Source of the DNA: Parasphingopyxis sp. CP4
Lineage (GTDB): Bacteria > Pseudomonadota > Alphaproteobacteria > Sphingomonadales > Sphingomonadaceae
Direction: 5' to 3'
Length of the DNA stretch: 64,000 nucleotides
NCBI RefSeq assembly: GCF_013378055.1
Contig: NZ_CP051130.1
Location: 1,922,001-1,986,000 of the forward strand
Shown here: one piece after another, positions 4,185-19,556 of the stretch
Layout: each line of letters opens with the position of its first letter
Numbering within the stretch: position 1 is the first letter of the stretch
Program-made: the position numbers and the translations under genes
Notes under the pieces: generated by a model
What the model saw: the letters and a program-made list of their open reading frames with translations, nothing else
Database searches by the model: none
What the model was told of the DNA's origin: nothing

Positions 4185-4547
4185 GTGACGAAAAAGGTGC
4201 TCGTTGTCGAGGATAACGATCTCAACCGGAAATTGTTTTGCGATCTACTAAAGGCGCATGACTATGAGCCGCAGCCCTTGGGTGATGGGCGCGAGGCGGT
4301 AGAGACGGCCCAATCGCAATCCCCTGATCTCATCATCATGGATATCCAGATGCCGCATGTCAGCGGTCTCGATCTGATTGGCGCACTGAAACAAGACGCC
4401 GAACTCAAATCGATTCCGATCATGGCGGTAACGGCCTATGCCGCCAAGGGCGACGAAGAACGGATCCGCGCAGCGGGCGCCGAGAGCTATGTCTCCAAAC
4501 CCATTTCCGTTGTGAAGTTCATTGAAGAAGTGAAAGCGCTCATCTAG
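4185..4547 (+). CDS. divK: Single-domain response regulator DivK
   Basis: This is a 120-residue receiver-only response regulator. The receiver residues are E9-D10 (acidic pocket), D53 in IIMDIQMP (phosphorylation site, same number as in Caulobacter DivK) and a SKP lysine near residue 105. The ends TKKVLVVEDN and SKPISVVKFIEEVK closely match DivK. In Caulobacter, DivK relays between the DivJ/PleC kinases and the DivL-CckA-CtrA cell-cycle pathway. The chosen start is GTG at 4185, preceded by GGGGTGG; the longer frame upstream has no homology and overlaps the divergent gene. The halogenase-like gene follows after 31 bp on the same strand and may be co-transcribed. Confidence 0.9.
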   Translation: MTKKVLVVEDNDLNRKLFCDLLKAHDYEPQPLGDGREAVETAQSQSPDLIIMDIQMPHVSGLDLIGALKQDAELKSIPIMAVTAYAAKGDEERIRAAGAESYVSKPISVVKFIEEVKALI

Positions 4548-4578: not shown

Positions 4579-5652
4579 ATGCAGATCGGCCAGCCGATCA
4601 AACGGCCAAGATTGCAACGATGGGCTCTGACGCTCGGGCTCTGCTTCCTGTTCGTCTGGCGCAAACTCAGGCTGCCCCTCTCGCCCTTTTCCCGTCAGAT
4701 CCGTCTGATTTTGACCAATTGGACGGACCGGATGTTCGGCATCCTGATCCGATCCCGGCTCAAACGCGCCTATCCTGACCAGCCTTGCACGCTGAACCAT
4801 CCGCAAAGCTATGCGCCCAAGGTCGAGGTCGATGATGCGCATAAAATGACCGAAGACGATATTCGGCACTTTTACGAGCGGGGCTATGTGCGACCCTTTG
4901 ATGCTTTCACCGAAGCGGAGATGCAGTCTTTTTACGAGGAGATTGAGGTCGCCCGCCAGGCACAGAGTCCACATTACGACATCGTAACCGACAGGGACCA
5001 TCATCTGAGCCTGCCGACCCTGATGGAGTTTATCCAAAGGCCGGCGATCGTCGAACGCTGCGCCCAGCTGCTCGGGCCTGACCTTCTGATGTGGCGATCG
5101 CAATTTTTCTACAAAGCGCCGCATGGCGAAGCCATCCAATGGCATCAGGCCAGCACCTATCTTGTCGAAGACTATATGTCGCCGGCGCTCATCCCGCCCA
5201 ATCGCGATGAGCTGTTCCAGCTGACCATCTGGGTAGCCGTGGATCCGGCGACCAAGGAGAATGGATGCCTAAGAGTGATACCGGGGACCGCAGACGGGAT
5301 CCGGACGATCACCTTCGGTGCGGGCGAGGAAAGCTTCTACGAAGCGAGTTATGCCAGCGATTTCGATTTCTCGAGCGCTGAACCCGATTGCATCGAGATG
5401 AAACCGGGCCAGGCGCTGATCTTCAGCGAGCGCACGATCCATGGATCCGGTGCGAATACAACGGACCATAGCCGGAGCGCGTTCAACTTTCGCGTGATCC
5501 GGCCGGATACCAAAGTCTATAAAGACAAGACCGTCCATCGGGCCCGGCATATGGGCCAGAAATATAATCTGGGACGATGGGGATGTGTCCTGCTGCGTGG
5601 CGAGGACAGATTCGGCCTCAACCGCATGGTCGAGGGTGCAAAAAGAAACTAG
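4579..5652 (+). CDS. SyrB2-like Fe(II)/2-oxoglutarate enzyme with HxA motif (putative halogenase)
   Basis: This 357-residue protein is of the phytanoyl-CoA dioxygenase fold. The iron motif reads H189-Q-A191 (codons CAT CAG GCC at 5143-5151) where hydroxylases have His-x-Asp/Glu. The second iron His is H288 (TIHGSG) and R299/R305 are the 2-oxoglutarate-binding candidates. Loss of the carboxylate is the hallmark of SyrB2-type non-haem halogenases, where chloride fills the vacant iron site. Remembered SyrB2 sequence matches along the whole domain: GPFDA/RPFDA near the start, LGP..L.WR..FF before WHQA, and NGCL..IPGT after it. Residues 1-85 are an extension with a hydrophobic segment (about 15-27), perhaps a membrane anchor. 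No NRPS, carrier protein or biosynthetic cluster lies nearby, so substrate is unknown. Alternative: an inactive or unusual oxygenase. Confidence 0.85.
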   Translation: MQIGQPIKRPRLQRWALTLGLCFLFVWRKLRLPLSPFSRQIRLILTNWTDRMFGILIRSRLKRAYPDQPCTLNHPQSYAPKVEVDDAHKMTEDDIRHFYERGYVRPFDAFTEAEMQSFYEEIEVARQAQSPHYDIVTDRDHHLSLPTLMEFIQRPAIVERCAQLLGPDLLMWRSQFFYKAPHGEAIQWHQASTYLVEDYMSPALIPPNRDELFQLTIWVAVDPATKENGCLRVIPGTADGIRTITFGAGEESFYEASYASDFDFSSAEPDCIEMKPGQALIFSERTIHGSGANTTDHSRSAFNFRVIRPDTKVYKDKTVHRARHMGQKYNLGRWGCVLLRGEDRFGLNRMVEGAKRN

Positions 5653-12490: not shown

Positions 12491-12693
12491 GTTTGTAACG
12501 ATTTGAGAGTCGAGTCGCGCGGCAGCGTCTCGTTACGCGCCAATGTTGCAGTGCGAAATTAACCATCAAGAATCCATTGATTCCAAGGACCTGCCATCTT
12601 GGGCCAAAAAAGTCTTGATGAATCCTTAACCGCTGTTCACAAATGAAAAATCAGGGTTTTTTGTTCCGAACTTACACAGGGGGGGGTTCGACA

Positions 12694-15600
12694 ATGTCGA
12701 ATATTTCAAGCCGTATACTTTCACTCGCTACGACCACCGCAGTTGGTGCGCTGGCACTCACGCTGGCAGCGCCAGCCAATGCGATTGTTCCCAACGACAA
12801 TCAGACGCCCGACGATATCGTCGACAATGATGGTGGCGTGAACGGCGTTGGCATGTTTTTCCGCAATGACGGTTTTGTGTGCTCCGGCACATTGATCAAT
12901 CCGCGGACGGTTCTTTTCGCTGCACACTGTGTCAACGATCGCCCCGAAAGCGATTATGACACGGGTGGCGTGATATCATCGGCCTTCTCGTTCGACGTGA
13001 ATGCGCTTCCGGGCTTCCAGGACTGGATCGGCAACGCCTTTGCGTCCAATCCCGAACTGTTCGTCTACAATATCAGCCGGGTCAATTATGATCCGCGCTC
13101 GCTTGCAGATCCCAACGCCTTTGGTTTCCTGGAAGGCGATATCGCGCTCGCAACGCTCGACACGCCGGCATCGGATATCCCGACTTGGGCCTTGCTCTTC
13201 TCGCGCCTCCCCGATCCCGACACGATCGACCCGGTGGATGGCACTGGTTATCACGTCAACATCACTGGCTATGGCCGTTCGGGCAGCGGCACGACCGGCG
13301 CAAGCCAGGGCATCGACTGGCGCCGCCGCGCAGCAGAAAATATGCTGGGCGCGCTGACATCGTTCGATGATCGCAACAACTTCCTGTTCGGCCAGCCATT
13401 TGGCGATCTTCCTAACAACCTTTATCGGCTCGATTTCGATGATCCGAACGCCGCAAATCCGTTCGACTTCAACCTGTACAAGGATGAGCCCCGCGCAAGC
13501 GAAGCAACCACCGCGGGTGGTGACTCGGGCGGACCGCTGATCCTTGATGCGGCTAGCAACGACCTGTCGGACGAAGATCTGGTGATCGGCGTTCTGTCTG
13601 GCGGCAGCCGCTTCTTCGGACCGCAGGTATTTAGCAGCTACGGCACGGAGAGCTTCTATCAGGCGATCTACAATTATTGGGACTATATCGTCGCAACGAG
13701 CCCGTACCGGTATGTTTCCGCTGCAGCGGGAGATCGTAACTGGGATGATCCCAGCCACTGGGTAACCGATCTCGACCCGGCTTTCCGCATCATCAATGGC
13801 GACGGCGAGGTGGTGAATGGACTGCCTGATTTCCTCGGTGCTGGCACCGAAAGTGACGGCCCGGGCTTTGGTGAAGTCTGTTTCGATCCGGTTGGCGCCA
13901 ATCCAGGTGACGGCTGTGGCGATCTTTCAGATGGCACACTGACCCCGCCGGTGCGTGAGAATGCGCCTACAGTGACGGGGGGTGTAACCTCGAGAATCGG
14001 TGTTGCATCGCTTGACGGCTCTGAGCCAGCAGCGGCAGCCGCCGTGGGTCCGGTAAACTCTCCGGCACTTGCGTCTCCGGCTGGGGTTGAAAACGCACCA
14101 AGCGTGTTCTTCCCGACGCCAGTGGGTGCGCCAACGCTCGACAATGGTCTGCCAGGGGCGACGGGTTTCGTTCCGGATAATATCGATCCGGATCCGTCAA
14201 TTGGCCAAGATGGTCGCTATTTCGACGTCACGCTGCGTGAGGCGGGCAGAACCCGCGTTCGCACTGCGCCGACCGTTGATCGGTTGACCCTGCTGGGCGA
14301 TGCGTATCTCCAAATTCGCGAAATCGGCAACTTGACCGTGATCGCCGATTATAACCAAATCGGTGGCCGGCTGCGCGTTGACGGTACCTTGAACACCGGC
14401 GAAGCGCTGGTGATCGACGGTATCATTCGCGGCCGTGGTACGTTCAACCCGACCTTCCTTACGATGGTAGGCGGCAGCCTCCAGCCAGGCGGTTCGGATT
14501 ATCGCACCCTGACAATCCAGGGCGATGTGATCCTGTCTTCGGCCACGAACACAGTGTTCGATCTGGCATTGAACCGGAATGACGCGCTCGCCATTACCGG
14601 CGACAGCGACAATGCTGGCAGCATCGTCCTCGGCGGCAACGCCCGGTTCGTTAATCGCCGAGGGACCTCGGCGCGCGATGGTCAATCCTTTGAGATCATC
14701 ACGACCGACGGTAAGGTTATCGGCGAGTTCGATAACGTCATGACCGCCAATCTTGGTGTATTGGAAGCCAGCCTGGTGTACGGCGACGACAATGTCGTGG
14801 TGAACCTGGATGCCGGTAGCCTTGCCGAGAATCTTGAGGGCGGCAATCCGATGGCCTCGGCCTTTGCAACGGCGCTCGATAGCTTGCGCGGTGGCAGCTA
14901 CACGGATCTCTACAACCTCTATGGCAATATCGACGTGATGAGCGCAGCCAGCCTTACGGCAACGCTGAACAATCTCGCGCCGACGATCGTCAACGAGGCT
15001 CAGGCCGTGAGTGTTGGCCAATATGACATGATGGTCGATGTGGTATCGGATCGTCTGTCGATGCTCGGTACGGGTTCACAGCCAACCGGCACGTTCAGCG
15101 TGGTCGGTGCGCCTGAGATGCTCGGTGTTGCAGCAAGCAACTCCAGTGTATCGCGGGCCGCGGCAACCCAGATGAGCTTTGCCGGACGGGTGGTCTCCAA
15201 TGGCCGCACGCTGGGTACGCTGCCTGACAATATCAGCGGCTTCATCTCGGGTGGTTATGAGAACCGCAGCAGTGCAACGCGCTTTGGCAGCCGTTCGGAC
15301 AATCAGGCCAACTGGCACATTGCCATGGGCCTGGAAGTCGAGGTTGCTGACAATCTGACCGTGGGTGGTGCATCGGCCTTTATCAATGGCCGTACGACGC
15401 TCCAGGGTTCCGAAGCCCGACTGCAGACCAACCAGGCCATGGCCTATGCGTCATACCGCCTCGGTGGCGGCGCATATGTCGCCGGTCTGGGTTCCGCATC
15501 GGTGACCGACATCGAGACGGCACGCTATGCAACGGGCAGCCTTGAAACGGCACGCTTCGGTAACGAAACGCGCGCGCTCAACTATATGGCTGGTGTGGAA

Positions 15601-16059
15601 ACAGGCATGAACATCGGCATCGCCGATGGCTTCGAACTCACGCCGCGGGCCGCTGTTCGCTACAGCCATTCTGAGTTCCAGGGCTATAGTGAAGTGGGAT
15701 CGGAGATCGCACTGTCGATCGATGATATCCGCGAGCAGCGCTTCGAAGGCCGGGTTGGCTTCGCCTTTAGCGGTGAAACCACCGTTGGCGATGGCTGGTC
15801 CCTGCGTCCGCAAATCTCGGCGGACTATGTTCGGGCCATTGGCCAGAGCGAGCGGGACATGACGGTGCGCTTTGCCCAGGCTGGCGGGGTTCCGATCCTG
15901 CTCCCGGGTCTGGCAGCCGACAATCAGTGGACCGAAATGCGCGGCGGGCTTAGCCTGGAGCGCGGCAATGTATCGATCACGACGGCGTTCGAGACCGATA
16001 TCGGCCGTTCCGAACTGCGTGATGATCGCGCAGTCGCGGAGTTCACCTTCCGCTTCTAG
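12694..16059 (+). CDS. Autotransporter serine protease (trypsin-like passenger), copy 1
   Basis: This 1121-residue protein has a signal peptide (residues 1-30, ANA|IVPND), a trypsin-like S1 domain and a C-terminal outer-membrane barrel. The catalytic triad is H78 (LFAAHC), D149 (GDIALATL) and S278 (GGDSGGP). Two to three beta-helix-like stretches (about 480-730) lead into an autotransporter barrel of about 300 residues ending in a terminal Phe, the usual outer-membrane sorting signal. A 60-residue Ala/Pro-rich insertion near residues 410-475 is missing from the neighbouring copy. The ATG at 12694 follows a run of G residues; the upstream in-frame ATG lacks a signal-peptide fit. The protein probably displays or releases a protease at the cell surface. 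The paralogue follows after its terminator. Confidence 0.9.
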   Translation: MSNISSRILSLATTTAVGALALTLAAPANAIVPNDNQTPDDIVDNDGGVNGVGMFFRNDGFVCSGTLINPRTVLFAAHCVNDRPESDYDTGGVISSAFSFDVNALPGFQDWIGNAFASNPELFVYNISRVNYDPRSLADPNAFGFLEGDIALATLDTPASDIPTWALLFSRLPDPDTIDPVDGTGYHVNITGYGRSGSGTTGASQGIDWRRRAAENMLGALTSFDDRNNFLFGQPFGDLPNNLYRLDFDDPNAANPFDFNLYKDEPRASEATTAGGDSGGPLILDAASNDLSDEDLVIGVLSGGSRFFGPQVFSSYGTESFYQAIYNYWDYIVATSPYRYVSAAAGDRNWDDPSHWVTDLDPAFRIINGDGEVVNGLPDFLGAGTESDGPGFGEVCFDPVGANPGDGCGDLSDGTLTPPVRENAPTVTGGVTSRIGVASLDGSEPAAAAAVGPVNSPALASPAGVENAPSVFFPTPVGAPTLDNGLPGATGFVPDNIDPDPSIGQDGRYFDVTLREAGRTRVRTAPTVDRLTLLGDAYLQIREIGNLTVIADYNQIGGRLRVDGTLNTGEALVIDGIIRGRGTFNPTFLTMVGGSLQPGGSDYRTLTIQGDVILSSATNTVFDLALNRNDALAITGDSDNAGSIVLGGNARFVNRRGTSARDGQSFEIITTDGKVIGEFDNVMTANLGVLEASLVYGDDNVVVNLDAGSLAENLEGGNPMASAFATALDSLRGGSYTDLYNLYGNIDVMSAASLTATLNNLAPTIVNEAQAVSVGQYDMMVDVVSDRLSMLGTGSQPTGTFSVVGAPEMLGVAASNSSVSRAAATQMSFAGRVVSNGRTLGTLPDNISGFISGGYENRSSATRFGSRSDNQANWHIAMGLEVEVADNLTVGGASAFINGRTTLQGSEARLQTNQAMAYASYRLGGGAYVAGLGSASVTDIETARYATGSLETARFGNETRALNYMAGVETGMNIGIADGFELTPRAAVRYSHSEFQGYSEVGSEIALSIDDIREQRFEGRVGFAFSGETTVGDGWSLRPQISADYVRAIGQSERDMTVRFAQAGGVPILLPGLAADNQWTEMRGGLSLERGNVSITTAFETDIGRSELRDDRAVAEFTFRF

Positions 16060-16224: not shown

Positions 16225-16364
16225 TCAGGCCAATCCGGTGGTAGGTCCGGCTTCGCCGCATTTCTTGGCACCCGATCATGCTGTTAAAGAAAGATAAATC
16301 TTGATTGTTGGGGCATTTTGAACCTCACCAGATCTATAGTTCGGCTGAACAAGGGGAAACCGTA

Positions 16365-19300
16365 ATGCGCAAGCCATTTTCACGATCCTGTTGGGCCGGA
16401 TGTTCTGCTGTGAGTGCGATTGCTGTCTCGCTCTTGGCGACGGCGCCCGCAAATGCCGTTGTTCCGAACGATAATTTCACACCCGCTGACATTGTCGACA
16501 ATGCAGGCGGAGTGAATGGCGTCGGCATGTTCTTTCGCGACGACGGCAGTGTATGCACCGGGAGCCTTATCAATCCGCGGACCTTCCTGTTCGCCGCACA
16601 TTGCGTGAACGACCGGCCGGAAAGCGATTTCGCAACCACCGTACCGGCCGCCGCCTCATTCGACGTGAATGCATTGCCGGGATTCCAGAGCTGGCTTGGC
16701 AACAGCTTTGCCAGCAACCCAGACTTGTTTGTCTATAATTTGAGCCAGATCGTCTATCATCCCGATTCCTTGTTGCGGCCAGAGGCGCAAGGCTTTCTTG
16801 AGGCGGATATCGCGATCGCAACTCTCGATACCCCGGCGAACAACATCCCGACCTGGGCGTTGCTCTTCTCGCCCCTCCCCACACCAACGATCGATCCGAC
16901 GACCGGTACCGGCTATCATGTGAACATTACCGGCTATGGCCGCACCGGTAGCGGTTCTGTCGGGGATGACACCGACATCGATTGGCGTCGTCGCGCGGCA
17001 GAAAACATGCTGGGCGCATTGGCATCGGCAGATGATCGCAACGCCATTTTCAATTCGGGCAGTGTTCTGACCCAAAATCTTTATCGGATCGATTTCGACG
17101 ATCCCGACCAGAGCAATGAGTTTGATTTCAACTTGTGGCGCGACGAGGCACTGACGCGCGAAGCAACCACCGCCGGCGGCGATTCCGGCGGGCCGCTGAT
17201 CCTCGATGCGGCGAACAATAGCCTGTCGACTGAAGATCTTGTGATCGGCGTGCTTTCCGGCGGCAGCAAATTTGATAACAGCCAGGAGTTCAGCAGCTAC
17301 GGCACGGAAGCCTATTACCAGCCGCTCTACCTGTTCTGGGACTATGTCGTAGCGAACAATCCCTATCGCTATGCATCGGCGCAGCCCGGCGATGGCCGCT
17401 GGGCCGACCGCAACCATTGGATCACTGATCTCGATCCAGCCTATCGGATCATCGATTCGAACGGCAATGTGGTGAATGGCATTCCGGATGATCTGGGTGA
17501 TGGAATTGCCGGCGACGGGCCGGATTTCGGCGAGGTTTGCTCGATCGAGGGCGATCCGGGAGACGGCTGTATCGACCTTGCAACAGGAAATCCGGTACCG
17601 GCCTCAAGTCCGCTTGTGCTTCCCGCCGCGACAATTGAGAATGGCCTGCCTGGTGCCACCGTGTTCGTACCGAACAATATCGATCCGGACCCAGCAAACG
17701 GCACGCCGGGCCGCTATTTTGACGTGACGCTTCGGGAGGCGGGCCGCACGCGGGTATCGCGCAGCTATACGATAGACCGTCTCAGCCTGGTCGGCCCGGC
17801 CCAGCTCAATATCAATGGCCGGGGCGATATCACGGTGCTCGGCGACTTTACGCAGGCGGGCGGGATCTTGCGCGTCGATGGAAGCTTGACGACCGGAGAA
17901 GCCCTGATCGTCGACGGCCTGTTGCGCGGTCGCGGGACGTTCGATCCGACATTCCTGACCCTGGTGGGCGGCAGCATCCAGCCCGGTAATTCCTCGGTAG
18001 GCACGCTCACGGTCATGGGTGGCCTCATACTTTCATCGGACACGCTGAGTGTCTTCGATCTCAGGCATGTCGGCTCCGATCGCATCGAAGTCTATGGCGA
18101 CGCCGATGCCAGCGGTGTCATATCGCTGGGGGGCACGGCCCGCTTCCTGCATCGGTCCGGTTCAGCCCCGCGCGATGGGACCACGCAGGAAATCATTACA
18201 GCAGAAGACGGTATCCAGGGCACATATGATGAGGTTGTACTGGGCGGACTCGGCGTCCTCGTCCCGGAACTGACCTATGGCGCCAACAATGTCATAATCT
18301 CCCTCACCGCTGGATCGCTGGCCGAGAACCTGTCTGAAGACAATGCCCAGGCCAGCGCCTTTGCGCGCGGCCTCGATAGCCTGCGCAGCGATAATTACGA
18401 TGCGCTCTACGGTCTGTACGGCGCTATCGACGTGATGGATGCGGCGCGGCTTACGGCGACGCTGAACAATCTCGCGCCGACGATTGTCAACGAGGCCCAG
18501 GCCGTGAGTGTTGGCCAATATGACATGATGGTCGATGTGGTCTCGGATCGTCTGTCGATGCTCGGTACAGGATCGCTGCAAAGCGGCACGTTCAGCGTGG
18601 TCGGTGCGCCGGAGATGCTCGGTGTTGCAGCGAGCAACGCAAATGTATCGCGGGCAACCGCAACCCAGATGAGCTTTGCCGGACGGCTGGTCTCCAATGG
18701 CCGCACGCTGGGCACGCTGCCGGAGAATGTCAGCGGGTTCATCTCGGGTGGCTATGAGGCCCGCAGCAGCGCAACGCGCTTTGGCAGCCGATCCGACAAT
18801 CAGGCCAACTGGCACATCGCAATGGGCCTGGAGGTCGAGCTGGCTGACAATCTGACCGTGGGCGGTGCATCGGCCTTTATCAACGGCCGCACGACACTCC
18901 AGGGGTCCCAGGCCCAGCTCATGACCAACCAGGCCATGGTCTATGCCAGCTACCAGCTGGGCGGCGGCGCTTATGTCGCCGGTCTGGGTTCCGCATCGGT
19001 GACCGACATCGAGACGGCCCGCTATGCATCGGGCAGCCTGGAAACGGCGCGCTTTGGCAATGAAACCCGCGCGCTCAACTATGTGGGCGGTATGGAAGCA
19101 GGCATTACCATCGGGATTGCTGATGGGTTCGAGGTCACACCCCGGACGGCGATGCGCTACAGCCATTCCGAATTTGGCGGCTATGACGAAGTGGGATCGG
19201 AGATCGCCCTGTCGATTGAAGATATACGCGAGCAGCGCTTGGAAGGCCGGGTTGGGTTCGCGTTCAGTGGTGACACGACAATCGGTGGTGGTTGGTCGCT

Positions 19301-19556
19301 GCGGCCGCAGATCTCGGCGGACTATGTCCGGGCGATCGGCCAGAGCGAGCGGGACATGACGGTCCGCTTTGCCCAGGCCGGCGGCGTACCGATCCTGCTC
19401 CCGGGTCTCGCCGCTGACAATCAGTGGACCGAGATGCGCGGCGGGCTGAGCCTGGAGCGCGGCAATCTATCGATCACGACCGCGTTCGAGACCGATATCG
19501 GCCGCTCCGAACTGCGCGACGATCGCGCCGTCGCGGAACTCAGCCTCCGCTTCTAG
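16365..19556 (+). CDS. Autotransporter serine protease (trypsin-like passenger), copy 2
   Basis: This 1063-residue paralogue of the preceding gene has the same plan: signal peptide (about residues 1-31), S1 protease domain with H79 (LFAAHC), D148 (ADIAIATL) and S274 (GGDSGGP), beta-rich linker and a C-terminal autotransporter barrel ending in Phe. From about residue 700 to the end the two proteins are nearly identical, including long exact runs, whereas the protease domains differ more. Copy 2 lacks the Ala/Pro-rich insertion. AAGGGGAAA precedes the ATG at 16365; the frame extends upstream to TTG codons that lack a signal peptide. Both copies keep all catalytic residues, so both should be active. 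Substrates unknown. Confidence 0.9.
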   Translation: MRKPFSRSCWAGCSAVSAIAVSLLATAPANAVVPNDNFTPADIVDNAGGVNGVGMFFRDDGSVCTGSLINPRTFLFAAHCVNDRPESDFATTVPAAASFDVNALPGFQSWLGNSFASNPDLFVYNLSQIVYHPDSLLRPEAQGFLEADIAIATLDTPANNIPTWALLFSPLPTPTIDPTTGTGYHVNITGYGRTGSGSVGDDTDIDWRRRAAENMLGALASADDRNAIFNSGSVLTQNLYRIDFDDPDQSNEFDFNLWRDEALTREATTAGGDSGGPLILDAANNSLSTEDLVIGVLSGGSKFDNSQEFSSYGTEAYYQPLYLFWDYVVANNPYRYASAQPGDGRWADRNHWITDLDPAYRIIDSNGNVVNGIPDDLGDGIAGDGPDFGEVCSIEGDPGDGCIDLATGNPVPASSPLVLPAATIENGLPGATVFVPNNIDPDPANGTPGRYFDVTLREAGRTRVSRSYTIDRLSLVGPAQLNINGRGDITVLGDFTQAGGILRVDGSLTTGEALIVDGLLRGRGTFDPTFLTLVGGSIQPGNSSVGTLTVMGGLILSSDTLSVFDLRHVGSDRIEVYGDADASGVISLGGTARFLHRSGSAPRDGTTQEIITAEDGIQGTYDEVVLGGLGVLVPELTYGANNVIISLTAGSLAENLSEDNAQASAFARGLDSLRSDNYDALYGLYGAIDVMDAARLTATLNNLAPTIVNEAQAVSVGQYDMMVDVVSDRLSMLGTGSLQSGTFSVVGAPEMLGVAASNANVSRATATQMSFAGRLVSNGRTLGTLPENVSGFISGGYEARSSATRFGSRSDNQANWHIAMGLEVELADNLTVGGASAFINGRTTLQGSQAQLMTNQAMVYASYQLGGGAYVAGLGSASVTDIETARYASGSLETARFGNETRALNYVGGMEAGITIGIADGFEVTPRTAMRYSHSEFGGYDEVGSEIALSIEDIREQRLEGRVGFAFSGDTTIGGGWSLRPQISADYVRAIGQSERDMTVRFAQAGGVPILLPGLAADNQWTEMRGGLSLERGNLSITTAFETDIGRSELRDDRAVAELSLRF

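Follow-up and report, generated by a model that had tools for sequence, protein, structure and literature searches.

The window analysed here, a 64,000-nucleotide stretch of the genome of Parasphingopyxis sp. CP4, contains an intact 357-amino-acid ORF with an ATG start (4579–5652, forward strand), predicted to encode an Fe(II)/2-oxoglutarate (2OG) enzyme of the SyrB2 lineage with an HxA iron site. On balance, and with moderate confidence, the sequence features point to a halogenase of this lineage that would act without an NRPS carrier and is probably membrane-associated and lipid-directed. The protein belongs to a real and conserved family of N-terminally extended relatives, whose members are probably active as enzymes.

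Direct reading of the translation places the motif WHQAS at W188, with the predicted iron-ligand histidine in H189-Q-A191 (5143–5151; this and the features below are on the forward strand unless stated) and Ala where oxygenases have Asp or Glu. The predicted distal iron-ligand histidine is H288 (5440–5442), R299 (5473–5475) is invariant throughout the superfamily alignment, and R305 (5491–5493) aligns with SyrB2 R254, which we take to be the 2OG-binding arginine. The first-pass annotation had placed all of these residues, and all were found by direct reading. The 2-His-1-carboxylate triad (HxD) is incomplete, with Ala at position 191 in every family member. HMMER alignment of residues 90–356 with CytC3 (5.6e-29) and SyrB2 (3.9e-26) sets WHQA on WHQA. 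HMMER and family alignments also match the invariant T216 (5224–5226) with SyrB2 T143, while the position of SyrB2 F121 is Tyr or Phe in the family. E284 (5428–5430), part of an invariant E-R pair in the family, aligns with SyrB2 S231, presumably a residue lining the chloride pocket. The protein scores 101.2 bits against the PhyH profile PF05721 (gathering score 22; 1.3e-28) and 146.5 bits against the NCBIfam profile TIGR01762, 'chlorinating enzyme' (E 9.7e-43). The latter score is below the curated cut-off of 226.3, and a halogenase name is therefore not expected from routine annotation. Two of the relatives (L051 and L057) score 162 against TIGR01762.

Descent was assessed in a maximum-likelihood tree of 78 rows, in which CytC3 was included; for SyrB2 the comparison was by profile and fold only. 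A 98/90 branch of this tree separates all 19 HxD enzymes from the N-extended family, the HxV enzymes, CytC3 and the other carrier-type HxA enzymes, and a single HxG enzyme. The N-extended family adjoins the carrier/HxV clade (100/100) from outside, and is monophyletic in 60% of the bootstrap replicates, with the cyanobacterial and myxobacterial members (L058 and L060) apart in the remainder. The stretch A191–Q214 that follows the HxA motif (5149–5220) is 24 residues long in the family, close to the 25 of carrier-type halogenases, against 12 in those HxD relatives for which it was measured. The stretch 232–272 has about 40 residues in both the family and the HxD enzymes and 61 in the carrier-type enzymes. 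Judged by these lengths, the family has the halogenase post-HxA loop, with about 12 extra residues, and lacks the carrier-type insert of approximately 20 residues.

The predicted fold gives the same placement. In a fold search with the AlphaFold2 model (pLDDT 89, pTM 0.89), the SyrB2 structure that contains Fe, Cl and 2OG ranked first among solved structures (Z 31.0, 262 residues at 2.1 Å), followed by CytC3 (Z 26.3), ThoJ (23.7) and PhyH (21.8). A profile search of solved structures returned SyrB2 at 5e-55 and CytC3 at 1e-52, the next match being at 3e-23; BesD and WelO5 were not among the matches at E up to 0.01. The protein is assigned to the SyrB2 lineage because of the 98/90 branch, the best profile and fold matches and the shared loop length, and by these comparisons it shares ancestry with SyrB2 and CytC3, not with the HxD PhyH oxygenases. 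The resemblance to SyrB2 first proposed from the letters alone was thus upheld by tree, profile and fold, and a position inside the HxD PhyH proteins, raised at the same time as the alternative, was not recovered in the tree, where the 98/90 branch separates them.

Other substitutions at the vacated carboxylate position were also seen. A planctomycete HxG enzyme (YHQG; L135:1-2328), which lacks the extension, forms a long branch between the HxD and HxA enzymes. SyrB2-like enzymes of the WHQV group, with Val at this position (L042, L043, L061–L074, L077, L086, L097, L111, L115 and L117), are found in actinomycetes, cyanobacteria, Bacteroidota, Proteobacteria and Myxococcota; that of L117 has HQV inside the carrier-type HxA clade.

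An earlier scan of genomes with the query protein alone revealed no relatives. The family then came from a degenerate alignment scan of 84,980 species genomes, which identified at least 10 relatives also carrying the N-terminal extension: in an acidobacterium (L051), seven Planctomycetota (L052–L057 and L059), one of them more distant than the others, a cyanobacterium (L058) and a myxobacterium (L060). Three more (L132–L134) came from 294 sampled planctomycete genomes, in which L057 (Botrimarina hoheduenensis) was met again, giving at least 13 relatives in total, with 35–49% aligned identity to the query. Both the HxA motif and the extension are kept in all 13 relatives listed (14/14 with the query included), representing at least five phyla. 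The dN/dS ratio between two close copies, 97% identical and the sole pair that was measurable, is 0.02, by which measure the family is under purifying selection. Since HxA is kept in 13/13 relatives and dN/dS is this low, the motif is conserved beyond chance. Conservation of HxA in orthologues, put forward as a check by the first-pass annotation, was therefore confirmed, and no orthologue with HxD was found. Two Vibrio plasmid PhyH proteins (L047:2732-3754 and L050:5103-6125) align to query residues 20–349 at 23% identity (tblastn); they have WFQD, with Phe in place of the first iron-ligand His, and lie beside a DUF1353 gene.

Residues 1–85 (4579–4833) form an N-terminal module absent from SyrB2 and CytC3, which align to the query only from about residue 84–90 in both the HMMER and fold searches. 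The extension is real, as the relatives align from query residue 5–6, matching the annotated start. It is strongly basic, with +15/−4 charges, and is modelled by AlphaFold2 as three confident helices (residues 11–29, 39–47 and 50–58). Five of its residues, W48, M52, D67, C70 and P75, are invariant in the alignment of the 13 relatives, and so, further along the protein, are the iron and 2OG residues. The first helix (4609–4665; pLDDT about 90–97) is hydrophobic, with a KD19 peak of 1.27 in the query and 1.6–1.85 in most relatives, and is a candidate membrane anchor, likely of the monotopic type. This helix is only weakly hydrophobic in L057, L059 and L060 (KD19 0.4–0.8), where the anchor would be weak, and membrane seating is consequently not certain. 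An N-terminal extension of 85 residues with a hydrophobic segment had been described from the query sequence alone, and the relatives now show it to be a conserved feature.

For this enzyme we infer halide binding, halogenation, membrane seating and a lipid substrate. H189 and H288 would hold Fe(II), 2OG would bind with R305, and chloride (or bromide) would fill the site vacated at A191. Reaction with O2 would give a halo-ferryl species, hydrogen would be abstracted from an unactivated C–H bond, and the halide would rebound. The basic and hydrophobic residues 1–85 would replace carrier docking by holding the enzyme at the membrane, within reach of a lipid or lipid precursor. Substitution of Gly or Ala for the carboxylate can make 2OG hydroxylases halide or azide transferases (PMC12346261), and anion transfer is therefore possible at an empty iron site. 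For efficient halogenation by one engineered hydroxylase, changing the carboxylate alone was insufficient (PMC13244439).

The invariant Glu at the S231 position argues against a halogenase, as it would be unexpected beside a bound anion, and it could instead point to an oxygenase. Such an enzyme would have another carboxylate, for which E284 is the candidate, or water at the vacated iron site, and would hydroxylate or desaturate a lipid. The pair E284-R285 is invariant in the family, and the known halogenases of the SyrB2 clade have Ser at this position (FWST). The same Glu, however, occurs in planctomycete HxD relatives (FNER; L136–L147), where it is no replacement ligand because the Asp ligand is still present. 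The family also groups with the HxA and HxV enzymes and has their post-HxA loop. An oxygenase is therefore considered unlikely, and halogenation is retained as the preferred activity.

Whether a carrier is involved was approached by counting PCP/ACP or adenylation domains in the flanks of each locus, some of the family flanks being short (4 kb for L060). Of the 54 carrier-type HxA loci, 52 have carrier or adenylation genes nearby, as do 14 of the 22 HxV loci; among the 13 N-extended loci this holds for one (52/54 versus 1/13, Fisher p 2e-10), namely L051, which has an ACP. The 64 kb window contains neither a carrier nor an adenylation domain, and the whole host genome has no NRPS condensation domain. 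The lack of carrier partners remarked on at the outset thus holds for both the query and nearly all of its family. The host encodes only two PP-binding proteins, both small. One of these, a small acyl carrier protein, is encoded beside a gene that by eye is serine-palmitoyltransferase-like (L171:5946-7438). In the absence of a condensation domain, and with only these two PP-binding proteins, any carrier used in this host, if one is used at all, would belong to fatty-acid or sphingolipid synthesis.

This allows for a halogenase that is carrier-dependent after all, acting on acyl chains held by the fatty-acid-synthase ACP or a sphingolipid-type ACP and needing no NRPS nearby. The proximity of one PP-binding protein to the serine-palmitoyltransferase-like gene is consistent with this, as is the L051 locus, where the family member sits with an ACP, ketosynthases, SDRs and an AMP-ligase; there is also a precedent in HctB, which chlorinates ACP-bound hexanoate (PMC8407142). 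The family nevertheless lacks the carrier-type insert of approximately 20 residues, with the N-terminal module present instead, and no carrier gene lies close to 12 of its 13 loci. Dependence on an ACP is thus rather improbable, and a carrier-free halogenase remains the reading that we prefer.

The gene was inserted singly into an intergenic site. It lies between divK (4185–4547, forward strand), a core gene present in 9/9 congeners, and rpmG, which encodes ribosomal protein L33 (5686–5853, reverse strand; PF00471). In eight of the nine congeners, divK and rpmG are direct neighbours with nothing between them and a gap of about 20–155 bases; for the ninth, rpmG is not seen in the compared stretch. 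In Parasphingopyxis sp. CP4, 1,138 bases separate the divK and rpmG stop codons, with the query gene alone inside. The empty site in these eight congeners identifies the insertion as such, and the gene entered the host lineage singly. The first-pass annotation had described a core-genome setting between divK and rpmG: the flanking genes are as stated, but the gene itself was found in none of the nine congeners. A sample of 398 genomes of the family yielded only partial matches to the query, at 29–36% identity. Taken with the absence from congeners and the empty site, this rules out a core gene of the genus or family.

The best other match in a sample of 385 genomes of the class was 38% identical over residues 88–349 and lacked the extension. 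This match is an alphaproteobacterial SyrB2-like enzyme with WHQAES (L148, genome G832), which branches at the base of the carrier/HxV clade. The composition of the query gene is not foreign (57.1% G+C, compared with 58.7% in the window) and is accordingly no help on the question of foreign origin. A phage or virus origin was ruled out: neither phage records nor viral contigs gave a match. Elsewhere in the window, two neighbouring long ORFs of 1138 and 1083 aa (12643–16059 and 16305–19556) have similar N-termini (VPNDN...ADIVDN or DDIVDN), and apparently represent a duplicated secreted protein.

A plain PhyH protein in which Asp has incidentally changed to Ala, or a pseudoenzyme in decay, would fit the isolated, singly inserted gene and the PF05721 score well over the gathering score, but is very improbable given the open frame with all iron and 2OG residues intact and the dN/dS of 0.02 in the one measurable close pair, and the incidental change in particular is ruled out by HxA in 13 relatives across phyla and by a tree and loop lengths that lead away from the HxD enzymes.

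The neighbours of the family vary from locus to locus. In the cyanobacterial locus (L058:7977-17125; also L151:680-3835), the family member is followed by an alpha/beta hydrolase, a fatty-acid desaturase, a Trp_halogenase-like flavoprotein, a sulfotransferase, an SDR, a second desaturase-family protein and a FabH-like synthase. Chlorosulfolipids are known from chrysophyte algae (PMC13413282), and L058 may possibly encode a pathway for a sulfated or chlorinated lipid of chlorosulfolipid-like type. The acidobacterial locus (L155:3016-14381, identical with the L051 locus), where genes of FAS type occur, contains a glycosyltransferase, two SDRs, an ACP, ketosynthases, an AMP-ligase and a carbamoyltransferase, and in L059 the family member precedes a PapA5-like protein (weak match). 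Five planctomycete copies are each directly upstream of one orthologous SDR (49–84% mutual identity). This SDR is not downstream at L059 and L152–L154, and has no close match in genomes G000, G468, G638, G581, G437 and G443, which include that of the query; a fixed SDR partner was therefore ruled out. The common thread of these neighbours hints at lipid-type chemistry, with no partner fixed.

Taken further, the family could tentatively be regarded as a distinct group of aliphatic halogenases of the SyrB2 lineage that are membrane-associated and need no carrier, and whose genes have passed from phylum to phylum singly or in small lipid-type clusters. Such enzymes would chlorinate membrane lipids or their precursors, with a possibly chlorosulfolipid-like product at L058. 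The open-access papers searched on chlorosulfolipid, lipid and planctomycete non-haem halogenases contained no description of the N-extended family. To our knowledge, the SyrB2-lineage halogenases characterised so far need a carrier-tethered substrate, a requirement that restricts them as catalysts. If confirmed, a branch of this lineage that works without a carrier would be a new tool to chlorinate unactivated carbons, and would imply chlorinated lipids in bacteria not known for them, such as the host of the window and Pirellulales planctomycetes. With its conserved pocket Glu, the family would also provide a natural contrast for the standing question of which features, apart from the lost carboxylate, turn a 2OG enzyme into a halogenase.

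Amongst known systems, SyrB2 of Pseudomonas syringae (PDB 2FCT/2FCU) is the closest in structure, sharing with the query the fold, HxA, the distal His, the R254 and T143 equivalents and the long loop after HxA. It differs in that identity is 29% and that the query has the 85-residue N-terminal module, Glu for S231 and no later insert of approximately 20 residues. SyrB2 requires its threonine to be loaded on the carrier SyrB1 (PMC13244439). CytC3 (PDB 3GJA/3GJB), with TIGR01762, belongs to the same subfamily by profile (9.7e-43) and to the same side of the tree, but the query falls under the TIGR01762 cut-off and outside the carrier/HxV clade (100/100). The free-substrate Fe/2OG halogenases WelO5, BesD, AdeV and DAH resemble the query in the idea of carrier-free function and, as far as reported, appear to represent other lineages; the published identity of BesD is 7% with SyrB2 and 11% with WelO5 (PMC8407142, PMC13244439). 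The PhyH-type HxD oxygenases, such as human PhyH (2A1X) and ThoJ (6ZYK), share PF05721, the double-stranded beta-helix fold and the 2OG arginine, but have an Asp ligand, a 12-residue loop in the HxD relatives measured and lower fold similarity (Z 23.7 for ThoJ and 21.8 for PhyH). By descent and iron site, the query belongs with the SyrB2-lineage enzymes, from whose characterised members its TIGR01762 score and lack of carrier context set it apart.
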